Below, in pieces: positions 29,467-34,642 of a stretch of DNA of 64,000 nucleotides. The notes beneath the pieces are model-generated. The model saw only the letters and a list, made by a program, of their open reading frames with translations. It ran no database searches and had not been told where the DNA came from. Positions within the stretch are counted from its first letter, which is position 1, and every line of letters begins with the position of its first letter. The translations under genes and the position numbers were made by a program. The stretch spans positions 4,650,001 through 4,714,000 of the forward strand of contig NZ_CP107939.1 of NCBI RefSeq assembly GCF_036046055.1, in the 5' to 3' direction. The DNA comes from Nocardia sp. NBC_00403 (lineage in GTDB: Bacteria > Actinomycetota > Actinomycetes > Mycobacteriales > Mycobacteriaceae).

Positions 29467-29855
29467 TCAGCGGCTGGGCTCGGCGTCGGTCGGCGCGGCC
29501 CACGGGCCGGTGTGGTGGGCGGCGCGCGCGGTCCAGCGGCCGTGGTCGTAGGTGACCCGGACGGGGTGGTCGAAGGCGGCGGTGACGTTGTCGGTGGTGA
29601 CCGTGTCGATGGCGGGGCCGCTGGCGACGGTGCGGCCGTCCGCGATGAGCAGTGCGTGGGTGGTGGTGCTCGGAAGTTCCTCGAGGTGGTGGGTGACCAG
29701 CACCGAGGCGACCTCGGGATGCGTGTCGCCGAGGGTGTCGATGGTTTCCAGCAATTGTTCGCGGGGCCGCCACGTCCAAGCCGGTGGACGGCTCGTCGAA
29801 CAGCAGCGAGCGCGGTTTCGCGATGAGGGCGCGGGCGATGAGGGTGCGGCCGCGT
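29467..29855 (-). pseudogene. ABC transporter ATPase, 3' half (split gene)
   Basis: Read leftward, the fragment begins GRTLIARALIAKPRSLLFDEPSTGLDVAA (Walker B and D-loop) and ends with the H-loop part ASVLVTHHLEELPSTTTHALLIADGRTVASGPAIDTVTTDNVTAAF. A one-base insertion in a C-run near 29775 shifts frame between GLDVAA and REQLLETIDTLG. The missing first half, up to LSQGERG, lies at 34190-34642 across a 4.34-kb insertion. Both parts overlap by the 7-bp repeat at the junctions. Confidence 0.85.
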
Positions 29856-29985
29856 GGCTAGGCAGGTGGATTCTGGCGTGGGACCGGCAGATCAACCACC
29901 TCAGCGGAGGCCGGGGCGTCTATGCCTGTGACCCCCAACGGCCACAGCTACGAACTCTTCACCACCGTGCCCTGAAGGGGTCGCC

Positions 29986-30051
29986 GACTGGTGGGCTCGC
30001 GTAATCAACTGTCGCGGCTTGTCGAGGGTTGAATACGCGATCTCACCAGTC
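29986..30051. repeat. 24-bp inverted repeat with 18-bp core, possible recombination site
   Basis: The left arm starts GACTGGTGGGCTCGCGTAAT (29986-30009) and the right arm ends ACGCGATCTCACCAGTC (30028-30051). They match as inverse complements at 20 of 24 positions around the core TGTCGCGGCTTGTCGAGG. Two inverted binding arms around a core is the geometry of a tyrosine recombinase crossover site. A third arm plus core is at 31051-31093. Confidence 0.55.
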
Positions 30052-30172
30052 AGGAACCCCAGGTCGACGCGAGTGCCGTGGGCAATGCTGGCCGCCAGCC
30101 CGACCAAGCGCTCCTCGCCGCCTCCGACGTAGCCGAGATTTTCCAGGCGGCCCAGGGCGGCCCAATTCCGCT

Positions 30173-30622
30173 CTAGTATCCCGAGCGCCTCTTGCGCTCC
30201 TGCTCGCGTTGCTTGTCGTCCTGGTCGCTCTGCTCGCGCTGCTTGCGCTGCTTCTCTTGCTCATCGCTACGCTCACGTTCGCGGCGTTGTGCGCGCTCGG
30301 AGATGGTCTCGCCGCTGGCATTCCACAAGAGCAAGGTTGCGCCCGCCCCGCAGTCCCGAGTGAATGTCACGGTGTCGGCGGGGGCGATCGGAAACTCGGG
30401 TTCGTGCAGTATCCGCAAATCGCTACACAGGGCGATCATGGTCGCGGTGGCGGCTTCGGCAGCGGTATTGGTGCAGGTGACTTCGAGGCGCGATGCGATC
30501 GGCACCGGAACACAGTTCACCTTGTCCCAAGGTGCGGCGTGCGCCAACGGCGCCGCGAGCATTGTTCCCGCTGCCGCGGCGACGGCAACCAATCCTGCGT
30601 GTACCGACCGACGAATTCGCAA
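30173..30622 (-). CDS. Secreted protein with charged coiled C-terminus
   Basis: I place the start at TTG 30622, preceded by GGAGG at a good distance; an ATG upstream at 30664 lacks this. The 149 residues begin with an export signal (VHAGLVAVAAAAGTMLAAPLAHAAP). The middle has three cysteines (VNCVPVP, VTCTNT, ALCSDL) and a fourth at TRDCGAG, so two disulfides are likely. The last 45 residues are almost only Glu, Arg, Gln, Lys, Asp and Ser (ERAQRRERERSDEQEKQRKQ), an extended charged helix. It is the only cargo-like gene in the element. Function is unknown. Confidence 0.7.
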   Translation of the reverse strand: MRIRRSVHAGLVAVAAAAGTMLAAPLAHAAPWDKVNCVPVPIASRLEVTCTNTAAEAATATMIALCSDLRILHEPEFPIAPADTVTFTRDCGAGATLLLWNASGETISERAQRRERERSDEQEKQRKQREQSDQDDKQREQERKRRSGY

Positions 30623-31050
30623 GGGGAACCTCCAGGGTGTGTGTCCGCCGAGCGACGTTTCCACTCAGCCCGCACGGTCATCCTGTCAGCTCGGGCCGGT
30701 GCTGACATGCCCCGAATTCCCACCGACGAATAGTCGGACATACCAGGCACCACGCTCCTGTCACGGTGCAATACCGATAAACCGGTGGTGATCCTTGCCG
30801 GTATGCCCATTCGCGTGGATTCTGTTGCCAGAGGCTCTCGGCGAGGAGGTGGATCCACGCGGCGAGCACCTCGCGACCCTCGATGGTAACGGTGTCGATC
30901 TTGATGTGGGCGGCCTGCACCGTGGCGCGGCCGGGCAGTTCGGTGAAGGTCAGCAGGTGAATCGCGGCGCGCTCGAATTGGGAATCGGCTGCGGCAGATC
31001 CTGTTTCGAGCAGCGGGCGCAGCTCGTCGGCGCTGTAGGGGTTCCGGACT

Positions 31051-31093
31051 GACTGGTGAGAGCGCGTATTCAGCTGTCGCGGGTTGTCGACGG
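31051..31093. repeat. Third copy of the arm-plus-core motif
   Basis: GACTGGTGAGAGCGCGTATT followed by CAGCTGTCGCGGGTTGTCGA repeats the left arm and core found at 29986-30027 with few changes. It overlaps the 3' end of the zinc-ribbon recombinase gene. Over this stretch the arm is closer to the inverse complement of the right arm at 30028-30051 than to the left arm. Confidence 0.55.
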
Positions 31094-32608
31094 TCTCCAG
31101 CCAGCGGGCGACCGGAATCTGGGGGCCGTGACGTAGCGGCTCCAGGTGGTCGCTGCTTCGGCAGCGAGTTTGGTAGTGGTGACGGGATGGAAGCCGAGGG
31201 CGTCGGCGACGACCGGGGCTGGCATCTGCTGGACGTGCTGGCGCATGGCGGAGGTTCGGGCCGCGACGTTGGCGATGCCGAGGGCTCTGAGCAACCCACC
31301 GAGTGTGTCCGGGTGCATGGGTTGTCCGGCTCGCCGGCCTGGGAACAGCCACCGCGAGTCGCGGTTGGTGGCGGTGTTCATGTTGGTGCGGTTGTCGATC
31401 CAGGCCAGGAGTAGGTCGGCGGCGGGTTGCGGAATTGGTGACGGGGGTTCGCCGAGGCGGAGCGGCACTTGCTCGCCGTCGCAGATGACGTCATCGATGG
31501 TGGGCCGGGCGATGCGGCTGAGGGGCTGGGCGTAGAGCAGGACGATGATGGCGGCCGCGCGTGAACGAAGAGGCTGGTCATCGTGGGTCAGCGTCTGCCC
31601 GATCAGTGCGATGCGGTCTTCGGGTGACATCGGCGAGCACTTGCAGGATTCGAATGTCGGCAGGCGGAGACGGCGCAGGAGTTTGCTTTCCATGCACCAG
31701 AGCAGAAAGCAGCGCAGTGCTCGCCGCCGGTGTGTGGTGTTCTCGGCGTGCCAGAGATCGATCTCGGCTTGGCCGCAGGTGTCGAGGGTGATTCCCTGGG
31801 CGGCAAGCCATTCCAGGAAATGGGTTGCTTGCCGGACCTGGTCGTCGGCGAAGCTGCGGCTGGCTTGAGTGACCGGTTTCCGTTCGGCTGCGCCGCGGAG
31901 CCGGGGTAGGACCTGCCAGGTGGCGTAGCGGCGGATGATCTGAGTGTGGTCGGCGTCGTCGATCGGTGTCAGGTGGTTGAGCAGCCAGCGTTCGAACCCG
32001 CAGACCTGCTTGTCGATCATCGGTAGGACACCGCAGGCCATAAGCAGTTCCCGAAGGTGGGCGGCTGCTCGCCAGGGCTCGGCGGTGTGGAACGCGGCAT
32101 GGGTCAGCTCGATGTTCCCGCGGCCGAGGTCGCGCAGCAGGTCCGCAGGGGTCCTGCTCTGACCTTTGCATGGGTAGAGCCACTTCAGCCCGGACAGCGG
32201 GTTGTTCATCGCGAGCATGTGCTCGGCGAACCGAACAAGCTCGGGCCGGACTCTGCCGGTGCCGTCATCGAGGAGTTCTGCAAGCCTGTCGGAGAAGGTG
32301 CAGCGGGAACACAGGCGGCGGGCATGGAGCTTGTCTTCGCGATGACAACGCGCGCATCGGTAACCGGTGCTGAATCCGGCGCAGTCGGTGCAGATCGGCT
32401 CCCGTGAGTCCGGTGCGACGCCGGGCAGGATCCGTTCTTCGTCGCATCCGGGGCAACGACCTCGGATCTTGAGGGCCCGGTCGTGGCAGGTGCGGCAGAC
32501 ATGGCCGTCGGGCCAGCCGGCCGCGAAGCATCCGAACCGGCCGCAACGGGCGCAGGTCTTCTTGTGCCAGCGCTCGAACTGCTCGACTGTCCGGTAGGCC
32601 GGACTCAC
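31070..32608 (-). CDS. Zinc-ribbon tyrosine recombinase-like protein (third recombination gene)
   Basis: The 512-residue protein starts at GTG 32608, overlapping the HTH gene by four bases. The N-terminal 130 residues contain four pairs of Cys-x2-Cys (TCARCGRFGC, CRTCHDRA, RGRCPGCDEE, CTDCAG, YRCARCHRED, LCSRC), a multi-zinc module likely to bind DNA or partner proteins. Then a SAM-like arm domain (ATHFLEWLAAQGITL) and a degenerate recombinase catalytic region follow (LLYAQPLSRIARPTIDDV, TSAMRQHVQQMPAPVVADALGFHP, WSRYV). Because the catalytic set is incomplete, it may act as an accessory to the integrase upstream. A remnant of the same family is at 1227-1673. Confidence 0.75.
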   Translation of the reverse strand: MSPAYRTVEQFERWHKKTCARCGRFGCFAAGWPDGHVCRTCHDRALKIRGRCPGCDEERILPGVAPDSREPICTDCAGFSTGYRCARCHREDKLHARRLCSRCTFSDRLAELLDDGTGRVRPELVRFAEHMLAMNNPLSGLKWLYPCKGQSRTPADLLRDLGRGNIELTHAAFHTAEPWRAAAHLRELLMACGVLPMIDKQVCGFERWLLNHLTPIDDADHTQIIRRYATWQVLPRLRGAAERKPVTQASRSFADDQVRQATHFLEWLAAQGITLDTCGQAEIDLWHAENTTHRRRALRCFLLWCMESKLLRRLRLPTFESCKCSPMSPEDRIALIGQTLTHDDQPLRSRAAAIIVLLYAQPLSRIARPTIDDVICDGEQVPLRLGEPPSPIPQPAADLLLAWIDNRTNMNTATNRDSRWLFPGRRAGQPMHPDTLGGLLRALGIANVAARTSAMRQHVQQMPAPVVADALGFHPVTTTKLAAEAATTWSRYVTAPRFRSPAGWRPSTTRDS

Positions 32609-32937
32609 TCCTCCCCGAGGATGCGCTCGGGCCGGGGCCGCAACTTGGCGACCACCGGCGCCTGCCCGGTGGCCTCAGTTCCGGTCCGGCGGACTCCGGC
32701 GTTCTCGGCGGAGGTGACAACGAGGTCGGTCGGGGTGCAGGCGAGAATGTCGCAGAGCGCCGAGAGCACCTGTAGCGAGAGCCCTTCCGGGGTGCCGGAG
32801 ACCAGACGGTGGACCTGGGAGGCGGACAGATCGATGCCGCGCTCGCGCAGCAGCGGGACCAGCTCGGTCGCGGTGAAAACGCCTTGGCTTGCCATGATCT
32901 CGCGCAGACGCCAGGTGTAGCCGATGGATCGTTTCAT
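32605..32937 (-). CDS. Helix-turn-helix (XRE-type) protein
   Basis: The 110-residue protein starts at ATG 32937 (MKRSIGYTWRLREIMASQGVFTATELVPLLRERGIDLSASQVHRLVSGTPEGLSLQVLSALCDILACTPTDLV), a compact Cro/C1-type helix-turn-helix. The last 35 residues are a loose tail. It overlaps the stop of the integrase and the start of the zinc-ribbon gene by four bases each. The three genes are thus one translationally coupled unit. It probably represses or directs the recombinase genes. Confidence 0.85.
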   Translation of the reverse strand: MKRSIGYTWRLREIMASQGVFTATELVPLLRERGIDLSASQVHRLVSGTPEGLSLQVLSALCDILACTPTDLVVTSAENAGVRRTGTEATGQAPVVAKLRPRPERILGEE

Positions 32938-33845
32938 GCCTGTTTGCCTTTCTGGGAGTGCAGAGCCGCCACGACGGTGGCATCGAGTCGTCGCCGCAAC
33001 GTGCGGGTGCGGAAGTCCGACGACACGCAGGTGTAGAGGGCGGTCGTGGAGGCGTGCTCGTGGCCGACCTGTTCCTGGACGAACCGAGGATCCCAGCCGT
33101 CCTCGATCAAATGGGTGACATAGAACCGTCGCAGAGAATGGAAGTCCAGCCCATCGTCGAGGCCGAGCGCCTGCCGGTAGGCGACGAACCGCGAGTTCAG
33201 GCGTTGGCAGCCGATCCGAAGACCGCGTTCGGACGGCCAGGCCGCCGGATTGCCATCGGCGCCGAACAGAGGCCGGATCTCGGTGAACCATTCGTCGAGG
33301 ACCTCGACTGTCCAGCCCCAGACGGTCAGCACTCCGCGCCGCTTCGGCGGCGAACCCTTCTTGGCCTTCCCGAACCGGACCTGGCAGCGACCGAACGACC
33401 CGAACTCCGGCCCGTGCGGGTTCGTCCCGAAGTCGGCGGCATCCAGCATCCGAGTCTCGTTGCGGCGCAGACCGAATGCGTACGCCGTTTTGAACAGGGT
33501 GGCGTCGCGGAACGCGGGCAGCCAGCCCTTGCGCCCGAACGATCGGATCCGGGCAACTTCGTCATCGCAGTGAGTGAAGAAGGCTTGCAGTTCCGATTTG
33601 GTGAACGCCCGTTTCGCCGGGTCGGACTCGCCTTCTTGGACGTGTGTGGCGGTGTTCCATTCGTGCACCACCTGGATCGGGTGCGTGCCGAATCGGCCTT
33701 CGCAGGTGGCCGGCCACTCATAGAGCGGATCGGTGACGAAGTGGCAGAACACCCGGACCGCCTCGGAGTAGGAGCGGATCGTCGAGCGCTTCGCCCGGCA
33801 AGGCTCCGGCGCGAGGCCGCTGCGCCGCGATCCACGAGATTTGTC
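32934..33845 (-). CDS. Tyrosine recombinase/integrase, 5' end disrupted
   Basis: The catalytic domain is complete: RDATLFKTAYAFGLRRNETRMLDA (Arg I), KAKKGSPPKRRGVLTVWG (Lys), LDFHSLRRFYVTHLIEDG (His-x2-Arg), VGHEHASTTALYTCVSSD (His and nucleophile Tyr). The arm-binding part from STIRSYSEAVRVFCHFVTDPLYEWPATCEGRFGTHP is intact too. Before it, at about 33845, the similarity stops, and the sequence is instead coding on the other strand (33886-34130). I therefore set the limit there; the open frame runs on to 34043 but is not integrase-like. The N-terminal 60-80 residues of such proteins are missing, so activity is doubtful. Confidence 0.72.
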   Translation of the reverse strand, partial: DKSRGSRRSGLAPEPCRAKRSTIRSYSEAVRVFCHFVTDPLYEWPATCEGRFGTHPIQVVHEWNTATHVQEGESDPAKRAFTKSELQAFFTHCDDEVARIRSFGRKGWLPAFRDATLFKTAYAFGLRRNETRMLDAADFGTNPHGPEFGSFGRCQVRFGKAKKGSPPKRRGVLTVWGWTVEVLDEWFTEIRPLFGADGNPAAWPSERGLRIGCQRLNSRFVAYRQALGLDDGLDFHSLRRFYVTHLIEDGWDPRFVQEQVGHEHASTTALYTCVSSDFRTRTLRRRLDATVVAALHSQKGKQA

Positions 33846-33885
33846 AGGCCCTCCGTTGTCGCGGCACCTCCTGTGCCTCGGCGCC

Positions 33886-34130
33886 TGTATCGGCACGGCG
33901 ATTTGGACAACGCATCGGCAGCCGCGCTCTACGAGGTAGCCCGTCGGTTTCGGGCCAGTCCCGACAAGCGCCACGATGTGCGCGACCGTGGGTTTCGGCT
34001 GCTGTGCGACTACCTTGTGCAGCATCCAGGGCAGACGTGGCAAGAGCGTTGGGAGGCTAGCGAACTCGGCACCCGCGCCGTGTTGTTGACCGAGCTCGTC
34101 GAGAACAGGACCCTTTGTGACCGACCTTGA
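33886..34130 (+). pseudogene. N-terminal fragment of another site-specific integrase
   Basis: On the plus strand the translation SAAALYEVARRFRASPDKRHDVRDRGFRLLCDYLVQHPGQTWQERWEASELGTRAV reads like the N-terminal domain of large actinobacterial site-specific integrases, which contain a PGxTWQxRWxASG stretch. The rest of that protein is absent: the element ends 60 bp later. It runs opposite to the integrase and appears to have replaced the first part of that gene. Confidence 0.5.
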
Positions 34131-34189
34131 ACAACGCCGCCAACGACAGATCCACCTGTAAGTGATGTCGTAGATGACCTGTAGAACCA

Positions 34190-34642
34190 GCCGCGTTCGC
34201 CCTGGGACAGGGTGGGCCAGGTGTCGTCGGCTTTGCCTTTGAGACCGACGGTGTCGATCATGGCGTCGGCACGGCGCAGTTCGTCAGCGGTCGGGGTCCA
34301 GCGCATCGGAGTATTGATGGTTGCGGTGATACCGGTCAGTACAACCTGACGGATCGTCAGCGGATACTGCAGTGGGTGGCGCGGATTGACGTGACCGATG
34401 GCATGGCGCAGGCGCGCCAGTTCGACCCGGCCGAGTTGCTCCCCGAACACGCGGACGGTGCCGGTGGTCGGGAAGGTGACCGCGCCGCAGAAACCGAGCA
34501 GGGTGCTCTTGCCCGCGCCGTTCGGGCCGAGCAGGGCCCAGTGCTCGCCCGCGCGCACGGTGAGCGAGATGCCGTCGATGATTTGTTTGCCCTCGCGGCG
34601 GAATGTCACGTCTGCCAGTTCGAGCACGGGTGTGCGGGTCAC
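34190..34642 (-). pseudogene. ABC transporter ATPase, 5' half (split gene)
   Basis: From GTG 34642 the fragment gives LELADVTFRREGKQIIDGISLTVRAGEHWALLGPNGAGKSTLLGFCGAV (Walker A), the Q-loop region and the signature LSQGERG, after which the insertion begins. With the 3' half at 29467-29855 it makes a 250-residue stand-alone ATPase of the ModF/iron-complex type. The start overlaps the stop of the GntR gene by four bases, so they formed an operon before disruption. Confidence 0.85.

Follow-up and report, generated by a model that had tools for sequence, protein, structure and literature searches.

Remnant ends of an IS21-family element border a mosaic insert in an ABC ATPase gene of Nocardia sp. 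NBC_00403

A gene for an ABC ATPase in Nocardia sp. NBC_00403 was found to be interrupted within its LSQGERGR motif by a 4335-bp insert with direct repeats on both sides. The gene and insert lie in a 64,000-nucleotide stretch of contig NZ_CP107939.1 (positions 4,650,001 to 4,714,000), which is referred to here as the window and whose own numbering is used unless a genome position is named. Because ends of an IS21-family insertion sequence (IS) stand at the borders of the insert, a short duplication surrounds it and the site is empty in relatives, the insertion was very probably made by IS21-type transposition. The most conspicuous genes inside it, a trio with a tyrosine recombinase, are best read from their sequence as a truncated passenger and not as the maker of the insertion.

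The empty site was sought with the DNA to the right of the junction, comprising the 5' half of the ABC gene and the next gene, which matched somewhere along its length in all 150 genomes of the genus that were searched. The 29 best-scoring relatives that were fetched (L104–L132) formed the comparison. The joined flanks aligned across the junction in 29/29 of these, without any gap within 30 bases of it, and an open frame with LSQGERG(RT/RA)LIARAL was kept in every one. Since all of these relatives align through the junction and keep the frame open, the insertion is real and the site is normally uninterrupted. An initial annotation of this DNA had described the ABC ATPase as split by an element with a repeat at its ends and had pointed to related strains for an empty site. 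Both statements held: GCCGCGT stands at 29849–29855 and again at 34190–34196 with the insert in between, and none of the 29 relatives was split at another point. The gene is broken twice, because besides the insertion its 3' half contains a second frameshift, which was seen in 0/29 relatives.

At the left border of the insert stands TGGCTAGGCAGGTGGATTCTGGCGT, which corresponds to the left ends of those elements whose right ends match the right border. Compared with a reference element in genome G072 (4658 bp, with an unbroken istA open reading frame (ORF) and istB in pieces), the insert has matching TG...CA termini, with agreement at 24 of 25 bases on the left and 41 of 43 on the right. With up to three mismatches allowed, each end matched the window once, exactly at the border, and there were no matches in 100 shuffles. 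The right-end sequence (34147–34189) recurs at at least five other places among the matches listed for the own genome and the 150 genus genomes. An istA gene adjoins it in three of them (own genome at 5893111, G015 and G072), and neither istA nor istB was found in the stretches examined around the right-end matches in G124 and G013. The exact left-end pattern occurs at six places in the 150 genomes, the window included, and the other five also have the second terminal repeat. We relied on these six exact matches and on those left-end matches that a second repeat confirmed.

The proteins of these cognate copies place them in the IS21 family: IstB matches PF01695 (IstB_IS21) at E 7e-59, and IstA carries PF22483. 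Elements of the group start with TG and end with CA, and the copies seen have two terminal repeats at an end, in agreement with what is described for IS21 (PMC10122671). The G072 element has both repeats, whereas the window insert has the first left repeat (L1) alone on the left and the first right repeat (R1) with about 14 bases of the second (R2) on the right. Both istA and istB were looked for in the insert and in the whole window, and neither is present in either. Both genes are present, one of the two broken, in the G072 copy and in the own-genome copy, the latter having istB uninterrupted and istA in pieces. An origin from an ISL3-type element with an 8-bp duplication had also been considered and was abandoned once istA/istB were found in the cognate copies.

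The repeat marks the ends of the insert, as the initial annotation had it, but the true length of the duplication is 6 bp (GCCGCG) and not 7 bp. This is because the repeat belongs to a TG...CA element, so that the seventh base, T29855, is the first base of the element itself. The 7-bp length was also given up because other copies show exact 6-bp repeats. Seven right-end copies besides the window were tallied (L172, L177, L178, G072, the own-genome copy, L180 and L183). Exact 6-bp duplications flank L172 (CGCAGA) and L177 (CCGGGG), in both of which the two ends were found independently of the repeat, and L178 (GGACCC), where the left end was found via the repeat. Among published IS21 elements, ISPve1a, ISPve1 and ISPkr1 have listed duplications of 7 and 8 bp (PMC3281130), and 5 bp is given for the model element (PMC10122671).

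A reading implied by the initial annotation, in which the gene trio placed the ends of the insert, is contradicted by the positions of the trio: it starts with a left end of its own near 31042 and is truncated at 33792, and the borders are occupied by the IS21-family ends. DNA similarity to other copies of the trio spans about 31038–33792 and reaches neither border. The left end of the trio, GGGGTTCCGGACTGGTGAG..., adjoins different DNA in different genomes, save for one flank common to L016 and L027. On the right, most of the longer matches listed stop at a single point, the one where the window trio is cut; an intact second trio in the own genome runs about 500 bp further right, with a complete integrase 5' end. 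Homology in trio gene 1 begins at residue 84 of the window ORF and is from there 98% identical to that second copy (L002). The trio makes up the largest coding block of the insert, and a clear tyrosine recombinase is among its proteins, as would suit a site-specific insertion of the trio into the ABC signature with an overlap of 7 bp. Such a course is nevertheless extremely improbable and already contradicted, with the trio stopping 1.2 kb inside the left border beside DNA that differs in relatives, its right 0.5 kb missing, and IS21 ends at both borders.

The proposal that the conserved ABC motif would be a preferred target, offering such elements many sites, found no backing either. GCCGCG precedes 0/8 other left-end matches printed with their flanks (one of these, in G141, is without a second terminal repeat) and 0/8 left ends at refetched loci, as judged by eye. 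The same insert was not recovered elsewhere: among the matches listed for the 150 genus genomes, no other genome has an insert matching both ends. In the sequences compared we saw no sign that the ABC signature acts as a special target.

Several further observations concern the trio. The second trio is complete at L008 1486–4738 (about 5477360–5480610 of the own genome), with a further copy of the end sequence about 370 bp to its left and, by eye, a transposase-like ORF past its right end. On contig C38 of G002 (L022 76–127), the left end of a trio and an inverted trio right-end sequence are directly joined. Insert-like DNA was also present in 172 plasmid records, 82 of them from Streptomyces; the best 20 of the 172 all match the trio, and those with annotation list an integrase, an HTH (helix-turn-helix) regulator and/or a hypothetical protein.

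As a whole, the interior of the insert is a patchwork of mobile-element scraps with a truncated trio among them (Table 1). The fragment of a VOC-like gene near the left border corresponds to a gene found in many genus genomes, with no other copy among eight own-genome matches, and the intact ORF in L042 gave no Pfam match at 0.01. In two complete genomes, G060 and G031, the distance between this gene and the ABC gene is about 0.5 and 4.7 Mb, respectively, so the piece did not come from next door. The palindrome beside it resembles a trio-element derivative stripped to a non-coding minimum. The two parts of hypothetical gene X, 30060–30164 and 30855–31039, sit 9 bp apart within an intact ORF of G098 (L050 3683–4219). 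Near the right border, the recombinase fragment corresponds to part of an intact 842-amino-acid ORF with PF00589 in G078.

Table 1. Features of the interrupted ABC ATPase gene and its insert, in window coordinates
Feature	Positions	Strand	Evidence
ABC ATPase gene, 3' part, with further frameshift	29467–29854	-	ORF list and alignment to 29 relatives
Target duplication, left copy GCCGCG	29849–29854	.	Identical to 34190–34195; site uninterrupted in 29/29 relatives; exact 6-bp duplications at other group copies
IS21-family element, left end (TGGCTAG..., with the first terminal repeat alone)	29855–29879	+	Match to G072 copy (see text); 20/25 to own-genome copy at 5888534
VOC/glyoxalase-like gene, 3' fragment (named by eye)	29879–29975	+	DNA matches in genus genomes; intact ORF in L042
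83-bp palindrome of two inverted trio-end sequences	29977–30059	.	Repeat search and comparison with trio ends
Hypothetical gene X, without both ends, split by about 690 bp (30165–30854)	30060–31039	-	Comparison with intact G098 ORF
163-amino-acid secreted-looking ORF	30173–30664	-	Segment 30114–30744 91% identical to G088 DNA
Tyrosine-recombinase trio element, right end missing	31042–33792	-	Second copy in own genome at 5477375–5480096, 92%
Trio gene 3, 512-amino-acid zinc-ribbon-like protein (ribbon by eye), weak recombinase similarity	31070–32608	-	PF00589 E 0.11
Trio gene 2, HTH_26 (Cro/C1-type) regulator	32605–32937	-	PF13443 E 3e-15
Trio gene 1, tyrosine recombinase that has lost its 5' end	32934–33792	-	PF00589 E 2e-15
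Fragment from N-terminal part of long (842-amino-acid) tyrosine recombinase	33793–34106	+	79% DNA identity to G078 L028
IS21-family element, right end (R1 plus about 14 R2 bases), reading inward on - strand	34147–34189	-	Match to G072 copy (see text); 35/43 to own-genome copy
Target duplication, right copy GCCGCG	34190–34195	.	Repeat match and empty site in 29/29 relatives
ABC ATPase gene, 5' part (up to LSQGERG)	34190–34642	-	PF00005 E 1e-17

The cognate copies form a group of IS21 elements in Nocardia whose passengers were surveyed. A search for IstB in the 150 genus genomes at E 1e-60 was positive in 36 and gave 44 listed matches, 20 of which, mostly the highest scoring, were refetched (two are near-identical copies in G102). 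A left end was found at nine of the 20 refetched loci, eight by pattern and L178 via its duplication; the 11 without a recognised left end are uninformative either way. These nine, with the own-genome copy, the G072 copy and the copy on contig C9 of G025, all three picked via the left-end pattern, make up a set of 12. Left out were G007 and G081:C16, in which istB is broken, and G081:C98, G137 and G141, which have a left-end match but in which no istB was found. The interval between the left end and istB measures 0.5–2.4 kb in 11 of the 12 copies and 160 bp in the remaining one (L175). A gene with a Pfam domain, mostly a different one each time, occupies that interval in 8/12, one of them (L187) just under the curated cut-off; this count covers scanned ORFs, those of L177, L181 and L184 being left out of the scan.

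The passengers comprise MerR and methyltransferase genes in the own-genome copy, HxlR and an NmrA-like protein in G072, APH-type kinases of two different Pfam families in G025 and G035, MFS and TetR in G061, a phosphoesterase in G091, DUF1152 in G051 and a MazE/AbrB-like protein, just under the cut-off, in G019. Because exact duplications surround both L172 and L178, the passengers of these two copies lie within the transposed unit. Loci at which differing passengers were noted between istB and the left end are L172, L178, L170, L186, L187, L102, L097 and L055/L044. Homologous istB was detected at E 1e-90 in 28 of 301 genomes sampled from the family and in 10 of 31 genera, Nocardia included. 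Taken together, we consider it reasonably probable that the Nocardia IS21 group loads and exchanges passengers in a single fixed slot that lies between istB and the left end, and that the window insert represents such an element in a collapsed final state. Two loci of the group showed additional arrangements: istB of G081:C16 (L100) is split by an ORF that by eye resembles a group II intron reverse transcriptase, and in G015:C26 (L045) 1632–2630 the IS21 right-end sequence occurs twice, with a methyltransferase-like ORF (by eye) in between.

As to how the insert acquired its present form, we lean toward remodelling of the interior in place. An IS21-family element, encoding the DDE transposase IstA and the AAA+ ATPase IstB, would have entered the ABC gene and duplicated GCCGCG. 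This element would have come from the Nocardia IS21 group, many copies of which have a variable passenger between the left end and istB. A deletion after insertion, starting just inside the left end, could have joined that end to the 3' end of the VOC-like gene, which may have been the passenger carried at first. The interior would then have been settled by tyrosine-recombinase elements, and both istB and istA would have gone in a second loss, together with most of the right terminal region. What remains is a transposase-less IS21 shell that is probably immobile. In published descriptions IstA subunits engage an end through both of its repeats (PMC10122671), so a left border with L1 alone suggests that the loss followed the insertion.

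The mosaic could instead have been put together within IS21 ends elsewhere, as a mobile insertion cassette, and have moved as one transposase-less unit with IstA and IstB acting in trans. The two ends coincide exactly with the borders and a clean duplication of 6 bp surrounds them, as such a unit would leave it, and the own genome has, besides the related copy already described, further IstA/IstB homologues. We regard this course as possible but rather unlikely, given that the left end is without its second terminal repeat and that no second copy of the mosaic appeared in the own genome or the 150 genus genomes, among the matches listed. An artefact of assembly is still less credible and highly improbable: the genome does contain repeats and a 92% identical second trio, but it is a single 8.7-Mb contig, 100% complete, and the borders are biologically sensible, with an exact duplication and exact IS ends.

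Some results weigh against IS21-type transposition followed by remodelling in place. The own-genome matches include no second copy of the VOC-like piece or of gene X, and the VOC-like gene is about 0.5 and 4.7 Mb away from the ABC gene in G060 and G031; remodelling in place would thus have had to draw these pieces from elsewhere, and the arrival of a pre-built cassette fits this just as well. Intermediate stages did not turn up. The own-genome IS21 copy is without a duplication, G072 agrees at five of six bases, and in L180 and L183, where the right end is present, no credible left end accompanied by an exact repeat was recovered. The left-end pattern with one mismatch is mostly noise, giving 36 matches against 25 for a reversed control in the 150 genomes.

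Among known systems, the plan described for the IS21 family is a pair of ORFs enclosed by two ends with repeated terminal motifs (PMC10122671), and ISMyo2 of Mycobacterium is of this plain two-ORF kind (PMC4608216). The insert and its relatives have in common TG...CA ends, repeated terminal motifs and a short duplication, and the relatives encode IstB_IS21 and IstA. The window copy differs in its foreign interior and the lack of istA/istB, and many relatives differ in having an added passenger segment. Transporter IS (tIS) are IS derivatives carrying passenger genes (PMC9330008). They and mobile insertion cassettes resemble the Nocardia group in having IS ends around passenger genes, but in the Nocardia group the passenger varies between most copies examined. 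L172 and L178 each have, like a tIS, a passenger inside an IS bounded by its own duplication, which the window copy, without istAB, does not. The same cassette at more than one locus, as expected of a mobile insertion cassette, was not seen among the matches listed. In the excerpts of the mostly open-access literature searched, we found no IS21-family tIS or mobile insertion cassette and no IS21 element with variable passengers.

The recombinase parts of the insert recall two other systems. Long recombinases of 611–828 amino acids are reported for Tn554-related actinobacterial transposons (PMC3414803), and the segment at 33793–34106 likewise derives from a long recombinase, which in G078 stands beside a shorter one (by eye); the window, however, has a 314-bp fragment only, which does not own the insert ends. 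Recombinase-in-trio (RIT) elements (PMC3414803) are similar to the trio in having three adjacent, co-oriented genes with at least one tyrosine recombinase. RIT elements have three adjacent tyrosine recombinases, whereas the middle gene here is an HTH_26 regulator and the third is weakly recombinase-like (PF00589 E 0.11).

For Nocardia sp. NBC_00403 the consequence is that the ABC gene is simply broken. The insert illustrates how an insertion may be credited to the wrong machine, as the visible trio appears to be a truncated passenger and the real inserter would survive as 25 and 43 border bases. The insertion itself is ordinary; what deserves further attention is the IS21 group that carries passengers. 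If its fixed slot does load and exchange passengers, IS21 would be an overlooked carrier of single genes, such as regulators paired with enzymes or transporters, kinases and a phosphoesterase, and IS21 elements with copy-specific genes would offer a testable route of single-gene transfer in Nocardia.

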